From Candidatus Methylopumilus universalis (GTDB taxonomy: Bacteria; Pseudomonadota; Gammaproteobacteria; Burkholderiales; Methylophilaceae), in contig NZ_CP040968.1 of assembly GCF_006365315.1 (NCBI RefSeq), positions 372,001-436,000 on the forward strand: DNA of 64,000 nucleotides. The letters run 5' to 3'. This document shows positions 54,507-64,000 of the stretch, piece after piece. A program made the translations under genes and the position numbers. Within the stretch, counting starts at the first letter, position 1. The number at the start of each line of letters is the position of its first letter. The notes beneath the pieces are model-generated. The model saw nothing but the letters and a program-made list of their open reading frames with translations. It was not told the origin of the DNA and did not search any database.

Positions 54507-54582
54507 TGGTGGGGGATGCGAGGGTCGAACTCGCGACAAACGGATTAAGAGTCCGCTGCTCTACCAACTGAGCTAATCCCCC
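54507..54582 (-). tRNA. tRNA-Lys (CTT), intact, target of serial integration
   Basis: A complete 76-base cloverleaf on the minus strand: acceptor GGGGGAT/ATCCCCC, D-loop AGTTGGTA, anticodon stem GCGGA/TCCGT around CTCTTAA (anticodon CTT), T-loop GTTCGACCC and encoded CCA. Its 5' half plus promoter recurs at 56359, 57131 and 58310 and, decayed, further right. All clear copies stop in the anticodon loop or stem. Lys(TTT) tRNA can read AAG by wobble, so a CTT gene is a fairly tolerant target (inference). Confidence 0.97.
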
Positions 54583-54650
54583 AGGAACGGATATTTTACA
54601 GTAATTGTGGGGGTTGTAGAGGGGGTTTCAGTGTGCTAACAGTGCTCTAA
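54583..54650. repeat. Upstream arm of the tRNA-Lys repeat at the intact locus
   Basis: This stretch carries the same ATATTTTACAGTA, TTGTAGAGGG and GTGTGCTA elements as the displaced copies, in the same order but in a shorter form lacking the GATTTTGGCAGG segment. From 54650 to 54808 I see no gene, only G-runs and AT-rich sequence before the HTH gene. Confidence 0.7.
54593..54620 (-). promoter_or_regulatory. Promoter of tRNA-Lys(CTT)
   Basis: On the minus strand, TCTACA (54615-54620) and TAAAAT (54593-54598) are separated by 16 bases, and the -10 ends ten bases before the tRNA. The -10 matches that of tRNA-Gly. The same two boxes and spacing occur in copies B and C of the repeat; copy A keeps the -10 but has a changed -35. 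Confidence 0.65.
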
Positions 54651-54808
54651 AGTTTGTGGTGCGTAATTGAAAGTTAAAAAAAAGTAGATTTTTGTCTTTG
54701 CTTAGAGGGTTTTTTTTAACTATTTCCCTTAAGTATTCCTACGGTCGCAGGATAGTCAAAGCAGGGGGGGGGTAGATAAAATATTTAAAATCTTTCGCGC
54801 CTTAGAAA

Positions 54809-55075
54809 TTGGATAATTTTGAATATAACTTTGAGCTATTAAAAGCTACACGCCTAAGCAAAAAAATCTCAGCGCAAAGTATAGCTGCTGATTTATGTTT
54901 AGCAGAACGTCAAATCATTTCTATCGAAGAAAATAGCGCTCAATATTTTCCTTCTAAATCTCTTAAATACACCAGCTTAAAAAAATACATAGCAGCACTT
55001 GGTTTAAAAAATGAGGATGTCATCTTCAATTTTAATGAAGTTGACCCCACCCCAAGTTTGTTAAAGAAGCCATAG
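54809..55075 (+). CDS. Small helix-turn-helix protein resembling the RodZ N-terminal domain
   Basis: An 88-residue protein with an XRE/RodZ-type HTH: LLKATRLSKKISAQSIAADLCLAERQIISIEEN, followed by YFPSKSLKYTSLKKYIAALGL, which matches the RodZ layout where the HTH is followed by a short 'growth through the ring' helix. It lacks the membrane and periplasmic parts, but the next gene encodes a membrane protein, so the pair could be a split RodZ-like system (inference). Start is TTG at 54809. It is the first gene of the module next to tRNA-Lys. Confidence 0.6.
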   Translation: MDNFEYNFELLKATRLSKKISAQSIAADLCLAERQIISIEENSAQYFPSKSLKYTSLKKYIAALGLKNEDVIFNFNEVDPTPSLLKKP

Positions 55076-55078
55076 AGT

Positions 55079-55468
55079 ATGCGAGCATTTGGTAATCTAT
55101 TCATTATTTTAAGTATTTTCACCTCAATACTCTTTGGACTTGAGTATTTTTCTGAAGCAACGACTGTGTTCTTAGCAGTTCTTCTGTATCTCACCGGTCA
55201 TTATGTGAGGCATAATTTTACCTATCGCAATTTTAAGATAAGCAGGCGATCAAAACCTTTTTTTGAATCAATATTAAAAAATACAATACAAGCCATTGCC
55301 TATGTAACTATCTTCATTTTTGTAGGCTACATACTCCTAAAAATCTCAAAAACTGATTTTTATCTAAATAATCTCCAAAGTTTGATGCAAAGCTCCATTG
55401 ATCTAATCAATGAAATGATTAATTTTTGGATAAGCCTACCTAACCGATTGATGAAATATGGACAATAA
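55079..55468 (+). CDS. Hypothetical membrane protein of the tRNA-Lys module (129 aa)
   Basis: Unrecognised protein with three to four hydrophobic helices: two at the N-terminus (about 4-22 and 24-40), one at about 68-87 and a weaker C-terminal one. A basic stretch (FTYRNFKISRRSKPF) lies between helices 2 and 3. It starts three bases after the HTH gene and overlaps the AraC-like gene by 11 bases, so the three form one translational unit. Confidence 0.6.
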   Translation: MRAFGNLFIILSIFTSILFGLEYFSEATTVFLAVLLYLTGHYVRHNFTYRNFKISRRSKPFFESILKNTIQAIAYVTIFIFVGYILLKISKTDFYLNNLQSLMQSSIDLINEMINFWISLPNRLMKYGQ

Positions 55469-55787
55469 GCATCCTTTATTGACGAGTGCTTGTGAATATA
55501 TAGAAATAAATCTTCATCTTAAGATTTCGATGTTTGATCTCAAGCGCCATACCAATTATTCCGAACGATCTTTACAGTTAATATTTAAAAAACACTTAAA
55601 TAAAAGTCCATTTGAATATATTGAAGAGCAAAGATTGTTAAAGGCCTACGAATTAATTAAACAACATAAACAATCAAAGAACACCACTGACATTGCTTCA
55701 GAAGTAGGATTTAGACATTTAGGAAGATTCTCTGTGAACTTCAAAAAAAGGTTTGGCATTCATCCTTCCGCATTGGCTCGAAGTTAG
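55458..55787 (+). CDS. AraC-family single-domain DNA-binding protein
   Basis: A 109-residue protein consisting of the AraC/XylS DNA-binding domain only: first HTH KISMFDLKRHTNYSERSLQLIFKKHLNKSPFEYI and second HTH TDIASEVGFRHLGRFSVNFKKRFGIHPSALARS. There is no ligand domain. Stand-alone AraC domains of this kind (SoxS/MarA type) are controlled by abundance rather than effector. It overlaps the membrane-protein gene and ends 12 bases before a convergent lipoprotein gene. Confidence 0.85.
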   Translation: MDNKHPLLTSACEYIEINLHLKISMFDLKRHTNYSERSLQLIFKKHLNKSPFEYIEEQRLLKAYELIKQHKQSKNTTDIASEVGFRHLGRFSVNFKKRFGIHPSALARS

Positions 55788-55799
55788 TGTAGTTAATTT

Positions 55800-56189
55800 T
55801 TAATCATCAAGTTCGTGTTGAATCCGCCAAAGAGCTATTCTCGTTTTAGGTCCAATTTTCCCGGTTTGCTCTAAATCTTTAGATTTTTGAAAGGCTTTTA
55901 TCTTTTCTGGAGTTGAGACATCAGGTATAGGTGTTTTGCATATTTTCTTTTTATCAAAGATATTAAATACGCGACAGTCTTTTCCTGATAATGCACTTAA
56001 AGCATGATCGGTTAAAGTTTTCTTTGTGACGGCAGCGCTTCCAACATCACCAGCTGTTTTTAACATATCAATGGTTTGTGCGGTCTGAACAGTTGCCACT
56101 GAACCACCTGCAGATGACGCTAGCAAAACACAGCCTTGGAGGCAGGTTGATAGCAGGAATAACAAAATAAGTTTTATTGAAATTTTCAT
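55800..56189 (-). CDS. Lipoprotein with a partial peptidoglycan-binding-like C-terminus
   Basis: A 129-residue protein with a lipobox (CLQGC) after a 19-residue signal. The mature part has a small-residue, Ala/Thr-rich helix and two cysteines (KDCRVF, KICKT), then IKAFQKSKDLEQTGKIGPKTRIAL, which resembles the second half of a PG_binding_1 domain. Function is unknown; anchoring to the envelope is likely. Repeat copy A lies upstream and its displaced tRNA promoter points toward this gene. Confidence 0.65.
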   Translation of the reverse strand: MKISIKLILLFLLSTCLQGCVLLASSAGGSVATVQTAQTIDMLKTAGDVGSAAVTKKTLTDHALSALSGKDCRVFNIFDKKKICKTPIPDVSTPEKIKAFQKSKDLEQTGKIGPKTRIALWRIQHELDD

Positions 56190-56251
56190 TTAACTTGCAA
56201 CGTTAAACTGATTATGTGGCTAGTTTGTGACAACGTCAAAACTTTTGACAC

Positions 56252-56474
56252 TCGGTGTGCTTTGGTGTGCTTGCAGAAATTTACTGAATAAAAACTTCTA
56301 CTTCTGCCACTGCTAGGATCTTACAGGGTCTCTAGTCTTGATATTTAACTGATACTGCGAGTCCGCTGCTCTACCAGCTGAGCTAATCCCCCAGAAACGG
56401 ATATTTTACAGTATTTGTGGGCTAGGCAGAAGGTTCAAGGCGGGGGATTTTGCGAGTGGTGGAATAGGGGTGTG
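56252..56474. repeat. Module junction A: element end + tRNA-Lys 5' half + promoter region
   Basis: From left to right: a 107-base segment starting CGGTGTGCTTTGGTGTGC (56252-56358), nearly the same as 58204-58309; then 34 bases identical, save one D-loop change, to the tRNA-Lys 5' half (56359-56392, ending at the first G of the tRNA); then the promoter region ATATTTTACAGTATTTGTG and a G-rich stretch ending GGAATAGGGGTGTG. The segment 56190-56498 holds no gene. The tRNA part stops exactly after ACTC of the anticodon loop and cannot form a tRNA. Confidence 0.9.
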
Positions 56475-56498
56475 TTTGTAAGTGCTGGTTTTTTTAGT

Positions 56499-57104
56499 TC
56501 AAATTTCTCTAATAGCCGTGCTAATGACTTTATAGGATGAGCGTAGCAAAAAGATTGATAGTGCTAATCCCACCACGATATCTGCCCAACCGCTCTGTGT
56601 AAACCACACAATAAGTGATGCAATGATGACAGCAATATTATTTGCAATATCATTTCTTGAACATTCCCAAACAGATGACATATTAATATCTTGATCTTTG
56701 TGTTTTGTAAGCAAATACAAACAAGTTAAGTTTCCTACTAATGCTATTACTCCAGCAATACTCATGATTTCAAAAATGGGTGTCGTATGGTCAATGATGT
56801 TCTGAATGACTTGTGATAAAACAAAGAGCGCACCTATTAAAATTAATATCCCTTTAAAAAGTGCTACGCGAGCTTTAGCTTGATTACTTTTGTAAATAAC
56901 AAATAGACTTAATACATAGGTGATTGCATCTCCTAAATCATCTAAGCTCTCTGACATAAGACCTGTGGATTGAGCAATCAAGCCTGAACTAAAAACAACA
57001 ATAAATAAAAAGACATTAATCGCTAAAACGATTTTTAATGTTTTAGACTGATTCACTTTCATAGCTTCAATAGCACAGCTTTTATTTTCGCAGCAATCTG
57101 ACAT
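56499..57104 (-). CDS. Truncated cation diffusion facilitator-like protein
   Basis: A 201-residue membrane protein with six hydrophobic helices and the CDF layout: SLDDLGDAITYVLSLFVIY in helix 2 and SVWECSRNDIANNIAVIIASLIVWFT in helix 5, where CDF proteins place their zinc ligands (HxxxD, here partly replaced by Cys, Asp and Asn). It lacks the C-terminal cytoplasmic domain of full CDF proteins. A Cys-rich start (SDCCENKSC) may bind metal or mercury-type ions. It begins 27 bases after junction B, whose displaced tRNA promoter points into it. Confidence 0.8.
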   Translation of the reverse strand: MSDCCENKSCAIEAMKVNQSKTLKIVLAINVFLFIVVFSSGLIAQSTGLMSESLDDLGDAITYVLSLFVIYKSNQAKARVALFKGILILIGALFVLSQVIQNIIDHTTPIFEIMSIAGVIALVGNLTCLYLLTKHKDQDINMSSVWECSRNDIANNIAVIIASLIVWFTQSGWADIVVGLALSIFLLRSSYKVISTAIREI

Positions 57105-57130
57105 TTGTTATCTTATTAAGTTGAGTTTTA

Positions 57131-57250
57131 GCTGCTCTACCAGCTGAGCTAATCCCCCAGAAAAGAATATTTTACAGTATTTGTCTGAGTTGTAGAGGGT
57201 CTAGGTGGGGGGATTTTGGTGCAGGCGGAATAGGGGTGTGCTAGGAAACA
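57131..57250. repeat. Module junction B: tRNA-Lys 5' part + promoter region
   Basis: The tRNA portion is shorter here (57131-57158, GCTGCTCTACCAGCTGAGCT and on to the CCCCC), then AGAAAAGAATATTTTACAGTATTTGTCTGAGTTG reduced to its boxes, TGTAGAGGG, GGATTTTGG and GGAATAGGGGTGTGCTAGGAAAC. The 107-base element end seen in A and C is absent to its left. Between 57105 and 57413 there is no other gene; 57250-57413 is AT-rich leader of the next gene. Confidence 0.88.
57169..57196 (-). promoter_or_regulatory. Displaced tRNA-Lys promoter facing the CDF-like gene
   Basis: TCTACA (57191-57196) and TAAAAT (57169-57174) on the minus strand keep the exact 16-base spacing of the intact tRNA-Lys promoter. 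Transcription from it would pass through the 28-base tRNA fragment and reach the CDF-like ATG (57104) after about 55 bases. Confidence 0.55.
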
Positions 57251-57413
57251 ACAATTATTGCTAATTATTGTATACATTCAAAACAATCATCTTGCTGTAT
57301 AGTGACGGTTAGATTCAGTCACAAGCACTAAAGGTCACTAACCTTTTAGTCTAATCCTCATCTCTCCTGTTAATGAGTTTTTCTCTAAAACTTAATTTAC
57401 AAGGAATTCTCTG

Positions 57414-58121
57414 ATGAGAAAATTTATATTTGCACTTGGTTTATTTGCTCTTCCGCTTATTTCTTTTGCAGTTGGTCTCCAATTGTCATGTGGTGACGCA
57501 GGGACTTGTGAGCTTCCTATTAGCTCAGCATTAGGTGCGAACTCAAGAAACGATACAACTTGCTATTTAGGTTTAGTCGGATCCTGGCATCAAAATTTAT
57601 TTAAAGATTGGCCTGATTTGTCTGCAGGTTGTAGATTTATAAAAGTTAAATCTAACGACGATGTAAGTGGCGTAGATATTAATACGCGATGGACGGCAAA
57701 CCGAAATGAAGGAAAAGGTATTTTTGATAGCGCTAAAGTTATGGCTGTCATGGGAGATAGAAACAATATGTTTGAACCTGGTATTGGTTGGTCTAAAACA
57801 TACAATGGTTTAATTTTACCTGTCTTCTTGCAAAAAGATCATATGCGTATTGGTGCAGACATTGCAATTAAACCTGACTACCGTCCAGATGACTGGAAAA
57901 ATTCTAAGCCTAACTATACAACTCAAGGACAATTTTTAGCCATCGATGGAAGCTTTGAAATTAACACACTAAGTAAGCCAAGTGCAGTCGTTGGTGGCAA
58001 TGGTGCATTAAGCTGTGGCGTTGGTCGAACACTAGTTCCTATTTCAGTTATTACAGATCGCAACTACTTAATTTCTGATGATCGCCAACTGAATGGCCAA
58101 ACTTGCACTAATTTACCATGA
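57414..58121 (+). CDS. Exported protein of unknown function (235 aa)
   Basis: Unrecognised protein with a signal peptide (MRKFIFALGLFALPLISFA) and six cysteines in the mature part, enough for three disulfides. The body has no membrane helix, is rich in Asn, Gly and Asp, and contains WHQNLFKDWPDLSAGCRF and GIGWSKTYNGLILPVFLQ, which suggest an outer or periplasmic beta-rich fold. It is the only gene of its module, between junctions B and C, and has its own terminator. AAGGAATTC near 57402 gives a ribosome site. Confidence 0.7.
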   Translation: MRKFIFALGLFALPLISFAVGLQLSCGDAGTCELPISSALGANSRNDTTCYLGLVGSWHQNLFKDWPDLSAGCRFIKVKSNDDVSGVDINTRWTANRNEGKGIFDSAKVMAVMGDRNNMFEPGIGWSKTYNGLILPVFLQKDHMRIGADIAIKPDYRPDDWKNSKPNYTTQGQFLAIDGSFEINTLSKPSAVVGGNGALSCGVGRTLVPISVITDRNYLISDDRQLNGQTCTNLP

Positions 58122-58170
58122 CCTGTGTAATTCTTAACAGTATTTTTTTGATTTAGATTTTTATAAAACT

Positions 58171-58199
58171 AAAGCCACTCTTAGCAGTGGCTTTTTTTA
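58171..58199 (+). terminator. Terminator after the 235-residue exported protein gene
   Basis: GCCACT (58174-58179) and AGTGGC (58186-58191), extended by AAA/TTT, form the stem around CTTAGC, followed by seven T. The same stem sequence occurs in the terminator at 60673. Confidence 0.88.
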
Positions 58200-58203
58200 T
58201 GTT

Positions 58204-58432
58204 CGGTGTGCTTAGGTGTGCTTGCAGAAATTACTTCCAAAAAAAACTTCTATCTCTGCCACTGCCTGGGTCTTACAGGGTCTCTAGTCTTGATATTTAA
58301 CTGATCTGCGAGTCCGCTGCTCTACCAACTGAGCTAATCCCCCAGAAGAGAATATTTTACAGTATTTGTCTGGGTTGTAGAGGGGGAAGGCTAGGGGATT
58401 TTGGCAGGGGTGGAATAGGGGTGTGCTAGGAA
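58204..58432. repeat. Module junction C: element end + tRNA-Lys 5' half + promoter region
   Basis: The layout copies junction A: element end 58204-58309 (CGGTGTGCTTAGGTGTGC ... TTGATATTTAACTGAT), tRNA 5' half 58310-58343 with the same D-loop base as the intact tRNA, then the promoter (TAAAAT at 58354-58359, TCTACA at 58376-58381, spacing 16, minus strand) and GATTTTGGCAGGGGTGGAAT to GTGTGCTAGGAAAC. The region 58122-58558 holds no gene apart from the terminator. Confidence 0.9.
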
Positions 58433-58558
58433 ACATCCGGAATCCGGTTATTTTGGATTGAACTCACCAGCTTAAATGAACTCTTAAGAACAATATGATT
58501 AAAAATACTATTAACTATAAAGATAACTTGAATCACAGTCCGATTGTGTTTGATTAAT

Positions 58559-59062
58559 ATGGCTATTGAAACAGTATATTTGGCAGGAGGTTGTTATTGG
58601 GGGTTCGAGGATCTTTTAAGTAAAATACCGGGTGTTGTTGATACAACGGTAGGGTTCTCCGGCGGGCATGTTAAAAATGTATGTTATAGAGAAGTTACAA
58701 CAGGAACTACAGGGCATGCAGAGACAGTAAAAGTTGTTTTTGATTCTGATATTTTAAGTTTTAAGGACTTACTTCTATTCTTTTTTAAAATACATGATCC
58801 CACAACACTTAATCAACAAGGTAATGATATAGGCACTCAATACCGATCAGCTATTTTCGCAACAAACAATGAGCAAATCTTGTTAGCTGAAGATTTGATT
58901 AAAAAGATTGATGCATTAGGTGTGCTTAAAAGTAAGATTACGACAGAAGTAAATACATTCAACTCATTTTTCTCGGCTGAAGAAAATCACCAAAAATACT
59001 TAAAGAAATTCCCAGATGGTTACTCATGCCATTTCATTAGAGATATTAATTTATCTGTTTAA
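58559..59062 (+). CDS. msrA: Peptide methionine-(S)-S-oxide reductase MsrA
   Basis: Repairs oxidised methionine. From ATG 58559 it has 167 residues with the active site GGCYWGFEDLL (catalytic Cys, with Tyr where GCFWG is usual), TTGHAETVKVVFD, and IHDPTTLNQQGNDIGTQYRS for substrate binding; a further Cys in GYSCHF may recycle the enzyme. The frame is open to TTG 58544, but MAIETVYLAGG is the natural N-terminus. It lies just right of junction C, a typical stress-related cargo gene. Confidence 0.92.
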   Translation: MAIETVYLAGGCYWGFEDLLSKIPGVVDTTVGFSGGHVKNVCYREVTTGTTGHAETVKVVFDSDILSFKDLLLFFFKIHDPTTLNQQGNDIGTQYRSAIFATNNEQILLAEDLIKKIDALGVLKSKITTEVNTFNSFFSAEENHQKYLKKFPDGYSCHFIRDINLSV

Positions 59063-60723: not shown

Positions 60724-60984
60724 TTACTTGCCCCCACTGTTTTCAGCTCCAGGGTTAAATGGGCCATTGCCACCAATCAATAATGCATCTGTAGGGTGAA
60801 ATGGTTTAAAGTCAGGTTCTGCTTCAACCTTATTTCCACTTTCAGCACCAGGATTAAATGGGCCATTACCGCCAATCAATAAGGCATCCGTCGGATGAAA
60901 GGGTTTAAAGCCCAAATCTTCTTGAGCAAAAAGAGGAACGTTTAAGAAAGAAAGTAAAAAAACAAAAGCTAATATTTTTTTCAT
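60724..60984 (-). CDS. Exported peptide with a perfect internal 23-residue duplication
   Basis: An 86-residue protein: a signal peptide (MKKILAFVFLLSFLNVPLFAQ) and then two copies of a unit beginning FKPFHPTDALLIGGNGPFNP and ending GAE, separated by a linker of about 12 residues. The copies are identical at protein level but differ at several third codon positions, which suggests selection on the peptide. Not recognised. Asp/His and Asn/Gly content would allow metal or sugar binding, but no function is claimed. The gene ends at its own terminator; junction D lies upstream. Confidence 0.75.
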   Translation of the reverse strand: MKKILAFVFLLSFLNVPLFAQEDLGFKPFHPTDALLIGGNGPFNPGAESGNKVEAEPDFKPFHPTDALLIGGNGPFNPGAENSGGK

Positions 60985-61068: not shown

Positions 61069-61186
61069 TCCTGAGATATATAGATGTCAACAATGAGCAT
61101 TATTTACATTAAATTAATCTGGCTGTGTAGATTTAGGTTCATGATTTTGGCAGGAGTCAAAAAGAGGTGTGCTAAGAAATGCTAAT
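61069..61186. repeat. Module junction D: decayed tRNA-Lys/promoter repeat
   Basis: CTGAGATATAT at about 61073 may be the end of the tRNA part; then ATTATTTACA (61099-61108), CTGGCTGTGTAGA (61120-61131), GATTTTGGCAGGAGT (61143-61157) and AGGTGTGCTAAGAAA (61165-61179) follow in the same order and about the same spacing as in junction C. The -35 box TCTACA is kept on the minus strand (61126-61131), although with a longer spacer. Confidence 0.65.
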
Positions 61187-63964: not shown

Positions 63965-64000
63965 AAGCTGGGCTTATCTCTCAGATTTAAATATTTTACA
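63965..64000. repeat. Module junction F: decayed tRNA-Lys/promoter repeat, cut by the window edge
   Basis: Aligned without gaps to the 36 bases of junction A that start CAGCTGAGCT and end ATATTTTACA, 26 positions match by my count, including AGCTGxGCT, TCAGA and the whole ATATTTTACA promoter core. The site lies 55 bases upstream of the photolyase start, as expected for a further junction; the rest is outside the window. Confidence 0.55.

Follow-up and report, generated by a model that had tools for sequence, protein, structure and literature searches.

What is the 107-base segment that occurs twice in the DNA before a tRNA-Lys gene of Candidatus Methylopumilus universalis, each time ending where a fragment of that tRNA begins? 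The stretch analysed, referred to here as the window, comprises 64,000 nucleotides (C1:372001-436000) of a 1.275-Mb genome (G000). An earlier note, made from the letters alone, had taken the segment for the likely distal terminus of one element family and had considered recombinase binding sites in it probable. The reading preferred here, which is considered fairly probable, is that the segment is the P arm of an attP site, carried by small integrative elements that enter the anticodon region of tRNA-Lys(ctt) by means of a tyrosine recombinase.

Layout of the array before tRNA-Lys(ctt)

The features are given in window coordinates, and the arms are named after the proposed attachment site.

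54507-54582, minus strand: tRNA-Lys(ctt), the target gene (ARAGORN and junction alignment)
54507-54548, minus strand: 3′ half of tRNA-Lys(ctt), chromosomal (junction alignment)
54549-54582, minus strand: 5′ half of tRNA-Lys(ctt), from unit 1 (junction alignment)
54549-54627: P′ arm of unit 1, tRNA 5′ half and promoter leader, distal part divergent (profile R2, E 2.8e-21, model 1-79)
54620-54593, minus strand: promoter-like TCTACA-16-TAAAAT in the P′ arm of unit 1
54549-56358: unit 1, 1810 bp, without recombinase
54809-55075: HTH_25 ORF of unit 1
55079-55468: membrane ORF of unit 1
55458-55787: AraC-type HTH of unit 1
55800-56189, minus strand: PG_binding_1 lipoprotein-like ORF of unit 1
56252-56358, plus strand: P arm A (segment under study)
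56255-56260 and 56265-56270, plus strand: two arm-type-like GTGTGC repeats in P arm A, 10 bp apart
56359-56366, plus strand: core GAGTCCGC of junction A, with the crossover at GAG or to its right (junction alignment)
56359-56475: P′ arm of unit 2, displaced tRNA 5′ half, leader and GTGTG at 56470 (R2, E 1.2e-31)
56359-57124: unit 2, 766 bp, P arm missing
56499-57104, minus strand: cation-efflux (czcD-like) gene of unit 2
57125-57241: junction B, damaged tRNA 5′ half (57125-57158) and P′ arm, without P arm (R2, E 4.1e-29, model 6-117)
57125-58309: unit 3, 1185 bp
57414-58121: ORF of unit 3, no Pfam match
58171-58194: terminator-like hairpin in unit 3, immediately before P arm C
58204-58309, plus strand: P arm C (segment under study), GTGTGC at 58206-58211 and 58216-58221
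58310-58426: P′ arm of unit 4, displaced tRNA 5′ half, leader and GTGTG at 58421 (R2, E 1.1e-33)
58544-59062: msrA, after the P′ arm of unit 4
61143-61179, plus strand: remnant of the P′ arm distal end (GATTTTGGCAGGAGTCAAAAAGAGGTGTGCTAAGAAA; repeat family D3, 84%)
63966-64000, plus strand: start of a decayed P′ arm that continues beyond the window (C1:435966-436062; R2, E 1.7e-9)

The tRNA lies on the minus strand, and the fragment found at the junctions is its 5′ half. Beyond the core the conserved unit extends rightward for about 117 nt. Units 1-3 contain no integrase. The decayed P′ arm at the right end of the window is an old displaced tRNA 5′ half, common to strain G015. Two 84-nt coding repeats (FKPFHPTDALLIGGNGPFNPGAE) are located at 60741-60923, in a small secreted-protein-like ORF (60724-60984, minus strand).

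The two arms and the core

Both copies of the segment carry the motifs that the earlier note had quoted, and they are 89% identical over 109 alignment columns. Each reaches (A)CTGC, directly followed by GAGTCCGC, with which identity to tRNA-Lys(ctt) starts. As had been described, the segment is absent from junction B, where only the damaged tRNA 5′ half is found. A BLAST search with the 106-nt segment over 16 genomes of the genus finds it 20 times, in 8 of them and with E values from 2e-50 to 2e-3, so that its recurrence is not due to chance; the cargo and neighbouring genes vary from copy to copy. A recent local duplication that includes neighbouring cargo, which the note had named as the finding that would speak against it, is rejected on these grounds. 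A profile (R1) built from 16 arms has 29 matches, spread over 11 genomes that belong to g1 and to a second genus, g19; 21 matches cover nearly the whole arm. Since 16 of the matches are its own seeds, the BLAST search is the independent evidence. When 399 genomes, sampled evenly over the order, are searched, P arm matches come only from genomes of the genus of the window (g1). One P arm, in G012, abuts the 5′ half of a tRNA-Phe. Recurrence with unrelated cargo in many genomes, together with this tRNA-Phe copy, supports the view that the segment is the end of one element family.

The characteristic feature of the P arm is GTGTGC, which stands twice, 10 bp apart, at the distal end in 13 of the 14 canonical arms. 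At least two other arm sequences exist (the L052/L053/L054 and L056 types), and their better-preserved copies start similarly, with GGTGTG. The proposal of recombinase sites within the segment has indirect support: the distal direct repeats are putative sites, the motif is also present on the opposite arm, near +111, and it is enriched beside related integrase genes. Scattered remnants, probably scars of lost units, consist of the outer 50 nt or so of the P arm (L048:11856-11899, L139:17793-17856, L052:9354-9414 and L035:16621-16678), and some of them are fused, with nothing in between, to the outer end of a P′ arm.

Phage and plasmid collections gave no meaningful match, the phage matches listed spanning the tRNA-like part only, and viral contigs contain no exact match to the P arm. 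Full arms are absent from the matches to short patterns. The sole AACTGATNCTGCGAGTCC match was dismissed, being inside a phage gene of another kind.

On the other side of the core, the 117-nt P′ arm consists of the 34-nt tRNA-Lys 5′ half, a promoter leader and GGGGTGTG. About 44 near-full P′ arms are found in 13 of the 16 genomes (profile R2). A comparison of about 50 junctions places the break in most of them immediately before GAGTCCGC, which corresponds to the 5′ side of the tRNA anticodon arm. Of 41 junctions, 26 have GTGTG at precisely +111, and 35 have it between 105 and 113. The same promoter-like TCTACA-16-TAAAAT marks the start of units 1, 3 and 4; matches to such a pattern are overall not commoner than in shuffles. 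Intact tRNA genes differ at a D-loop base, reading CTACCAAC or CTACCAGC, as would be expected if tRNA halves are exchanged. With conserved arms of 107 and 117 nt carrying GTGTG(C) as putative sites on either side of the core, the layout is that of a lambda-type attP of about 225 bp, to which binding of an integrase is predicted; for tRNA-gene integrative elements, an attP of about 250 bp with integrase sites on both sides of the core is expected.

The canonical junctions read CTGC/GAG, whereas the tRNA and the integrase-bearing elements have TTAA/GAG. A 7-bp overlap in the anticodon loop would therefore be mismatched, and canonical units may have their overlap to the right of the anticodon loop, or may use a different integrase.

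In the proposed mechanism, the excised circle would carry, in order, the P arm with its two arm-type sites, the core and the P′ arm with a single GTGTG. Recombination with the tRNA would join the chromosomal 3′ half to the 5′ half and promoter of the element. Because the element supplies both, the tRNA would remain intact, while the old 5′ half would be left beside the P arm, at the opposite end of the element. Since the P′ arm is made of a tRNA half and its leader, each insertion would renew the front half and promoter of the tRNA and push the old half outward, and successive insertions would line the units up in tandem, the most recent one being nearest the tRNA. Units of one to four genes that lack an integrase would be moved in trans by a related integrase of about 410 residues, and some would settle at other cores, such as tRNA-Phe or GAGTCC sites in other mobile DNA. 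Of this scheme, the unit boundaries, their recurrence, the exchange pattern of 5′ half and promoter, the presence of the same units at several loci and the integrases of one clade at 5′-half junctions are observed, while binding of the segment by the integrase, circle formation and action in trans are predicted.

Integrases, movement of units and competing readings

The genome of the window encodes only two tyrosine recombinases, of 302 and 311 residues, a pair that is present across the genus and presumably represents XerC and XerD. It has no relative of the candidate integrase. In the sister species G002, a 412-residue tyrosine integrase (L049:680-1918, minus strand; Pfam Phage_integrase, 4.7e-9; phrog_1, 1.3e-29) is located at the end of a 6.2-kb unit, beside a tRNA-Lys 5′-half junction and a GTGTGC-bearing P arm. 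The same unit contains a 188-residue tyrosine recombinase with a catalytic domain only (L037:18715-19281). A degraded relative sits beside another P arm in G010, and the arm adjacent to the L074 integrase matches the P-arm model weakly (E 0.0028); that of L049 was not detected with a model made of canonical arms only. No intact integrase was found beside a canonical (CTGC/GAG) P arm like A or C. A related integrase is found beside a variant P arm and not beside an identical one. Neither viral relatives of the 412-residue integrase nor solved structures matching it by sequence were found.

Relatives of this integrase are encoded at 45 loci. Where a tRNA can be recognised, the integrase in most cases follows closely on a complete tRNA-Lys or tRNA-Met, which is the usual 3′-half arrangement. 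Several 3′-half loci have GCTTACACACCGCTTACACAC or a similar sequence between tRNA and integrase; this is the complement of the GTGTGC arm motif, and in 28 loci it is found 22 times in the sense direction, against 5.6 expected, and three times in antisense. The Methylophilaceae integrases L049, L074, L075, L076 and L102 have only the 5′ half of tRNA-Lys at the junction, and the tRNA-Lys 5′-half integrases form one clade (support 100/99), which lies beside the tRNA-Lys(ttt) 3′-half integrases of Polynucleobacter and relatives. Since the 5′-half clade stands beside 3′-half relatives, its arrangement looks like a switch that evolved within a 3′-half integrase family. G098 has two elements, each bounded by a complete tRNA-Lys on one side and by its displaced 5′ half on the other; the integrase is frameshifted at tRNA-Lys(ctt) and open at tRNA-Lys(ttt).

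Three further loci deserve mention. The L074 contig (JAJTEE010000033.1), labelled as an alphaproteobacterial MAG, carries an integrase 98% identical to that of G002 and a full P′ arm, and is probably misbinned. A truncated integrase of the same superfamily in G012:C38 (L038:1293-2553) adjoins a tRNA-Phe 5′ half of its own, possibly a second origin of 5′-half targeting. In G001, the same tRNA-Lys has on its 3′ side a conventional element of about 20 kb (C1:441571-461912; L045, L046), which encodes a 427-residue integrase of its own, contains two DNA cytosine methyltransferase-like genes and leaves a 3′ half at 441571; a single anticodon core thus serves for insertion from either side.

The same units are found at different loci. 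Units 1 and 2 of the window, at the Lys locus, also occur beside tRNA-Ser in G015, a strain of the same species, with 95-97% identity. Unit 2 also has a copy with 96.5% identity at this tRNA-Ser-adjacent locus in G002, where the copy at the Lys locus reaches only 86%. For unit 1, G000 and G002 are 95.9% identical, versus 91.8% for 13.6 kb of flanking chromosome. Units in g19 are apparently located at GAGTCC within a gene of another mobile element. These comparisons of sequence support horizontal movement with the site chosen at the core.

A different kind of exchange is probable to the right of junction B. The czcD unit lacks its P arm alike in G000, G001, G002 and G015, and all four share the damaged junction, whereas the cargo to its right differs. 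Since the P arm is gone while this cargo still varies, exchange would have gone through the P′ repeats, and cargo is probably reshuffled by homologous recombination between P′ arms as well. In G015, a block inserted by a P′ arm (L048:11999-14228) holds methionine-salvage-like genes that are absent there in G000, including a methylthioribose-1-phosphate isomerase-like gene, an aldolase and a cupin.

Such exchange might be the whole explanation: the array would be a homologous-recombination hotspot in which P′ repeats of about 100 nt swap cargo, the P arms being fossils with no present recombinase. The missing cognate integrase, the shared junction B with differing cargo and the fused P/P′ scars at several places agree with this reading. 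It is nevertheless rather unlikely, since it explains neither the units at loci without P′ homology (tRNA-Ser-adjacent, tRNA-Phe and the GAGTCC sites in g19) nor the breaks that are sharp to a single base and the conserved GTGTG spacing. That the resident XerC and XerD move the units, in the manner of IMEX, is very improbable even though they are the sole tyrosine recombinases of the genome: the units enter a tRNA anticodon region instead of dif, and an Xer/dif origin is rejected because the core contains no counterpart of the host's dif-like site (CGTATAATGTATATTATGTAAAAT, at 670 kb). Long arms with repeated sites are, moreover, a property of lambda-Int-like rather than Xer-like systems. Least credible of all is the idea, suggested by the hairpin before P arm C, that the segment serves as a terminator or leader of transcription and spreads together with cargo through local duplication. 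This hairpin lies outside the segment, a different sequence precedes P arm A, and the copies adjoin the recombination core and stand beside differing genes in several genomes.

Integration through an attP thus remains the preferred reading. In a wider picture, which is put forward only tentatively, cassettes of one to a few genes with a 225-bp attP would pile up before tRNA-Lys in streamlined freshwater bacteria, replacing its front half and promoter, and an integrase acting in trans from rare autonomous relatives would move them between loci and species with no integron involved.

Meaning and relation to known systems

A published but unexplained island of abundant freshwater methylotrophs is here resolved into units with defined ends, so that gain and loss of cassettes can be counted in genomes and metagenomes. 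The array also provides a worked bacterial example of the rare tRNA integration at the 5′ half, with replacement of the promoter, and the switch to it can be traced inside one integrase family, in which a 5′-half clade stands beside 3′-half relatives at tRNA-Lys. Because the units lack an integrase, they are missed by island finders that require one.

Several known classes share some of these features. An integron gene cassette is rejected, as the genome has no IntI-type integrase, only the recombinases of 302 and 311 residues; none of the insertions screened by Layoun et al. (PMC10872708) was a bona fide integron either. The same authors assign the tycheposon to fGI-3 at tRNA-Met. This class, marked by a tyrosine recombinase of its own and large cargo beside a tRNA, is rejected for the window units, which encode no recombinase. 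Units 1 and 3 have att sites at both ends and no recombinase or transfer genes, as in a cis-mobilizable element (CIME), while unit 2 is without its P arm. For mobilisation by the recombinase of a related element, which also marks CIMEs, there is a candidate integrase in sister species. CIMEs and the ssrA island arrays of Dehalococcoides likewise have tandem units without integration genes and att sites at one RNA gene; the latter, unlike the window, use a serine recombinase and the 3′ end of ssrA (PMC3146451). As in tRNA-gene integrative elements, a complete tRNA stands at one end and a displaced fragment in the same orientation at the other, in G098 as well; the internal integrase of that class is absent from the window units and present in the G002 and G098 relatives.

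Integration that leaves a 5′ tDNA fragment is rare, accounting for 159 of 3919 islands in Islander (PMC4383910). These islands resemble the window in having a complete tRNA and a displaced 5′ half at their ends and a crossover in the anticodon region, but Islander needs an internal integrase and at least 2 kb, whereas the window units are 0.8-1.8 kb without integrase (PMC4383910). In the pTN3-type elements, too, the 5′ half is restored and the promoter is brought by the element; they are, however, archaeal and their integrase gene is split on integration, while here it is beside the P arm or absent (PMC8371274).

The island itself, and with it the closest system, is fGI-2 of Ca. Methylopumilus, with its 20-nt tRNA-Lys repeats (Layoun et al. 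2024, PMC10872708). In the available part of that paper, it is an island after tRNA-Lys(ctt) with recurring ACCAGCTGAGCTAATCCCCC repeats and czcD and msrA as cargo, as in the window. As described there, it has the 20-nt repeats only, called the last 20 bp of the tRNA, and is given without att arms, integrase or mechanism, whereas here these repeats are the tRNA 5′ end within the 117-nt P′ arm. A search of an open-access library gave no earlier account of the att anatomy, the promoter replacement or the integrase clade. The att anatomy, the promoter-replacing mode for fGI-2 and the integrase clade are new here.
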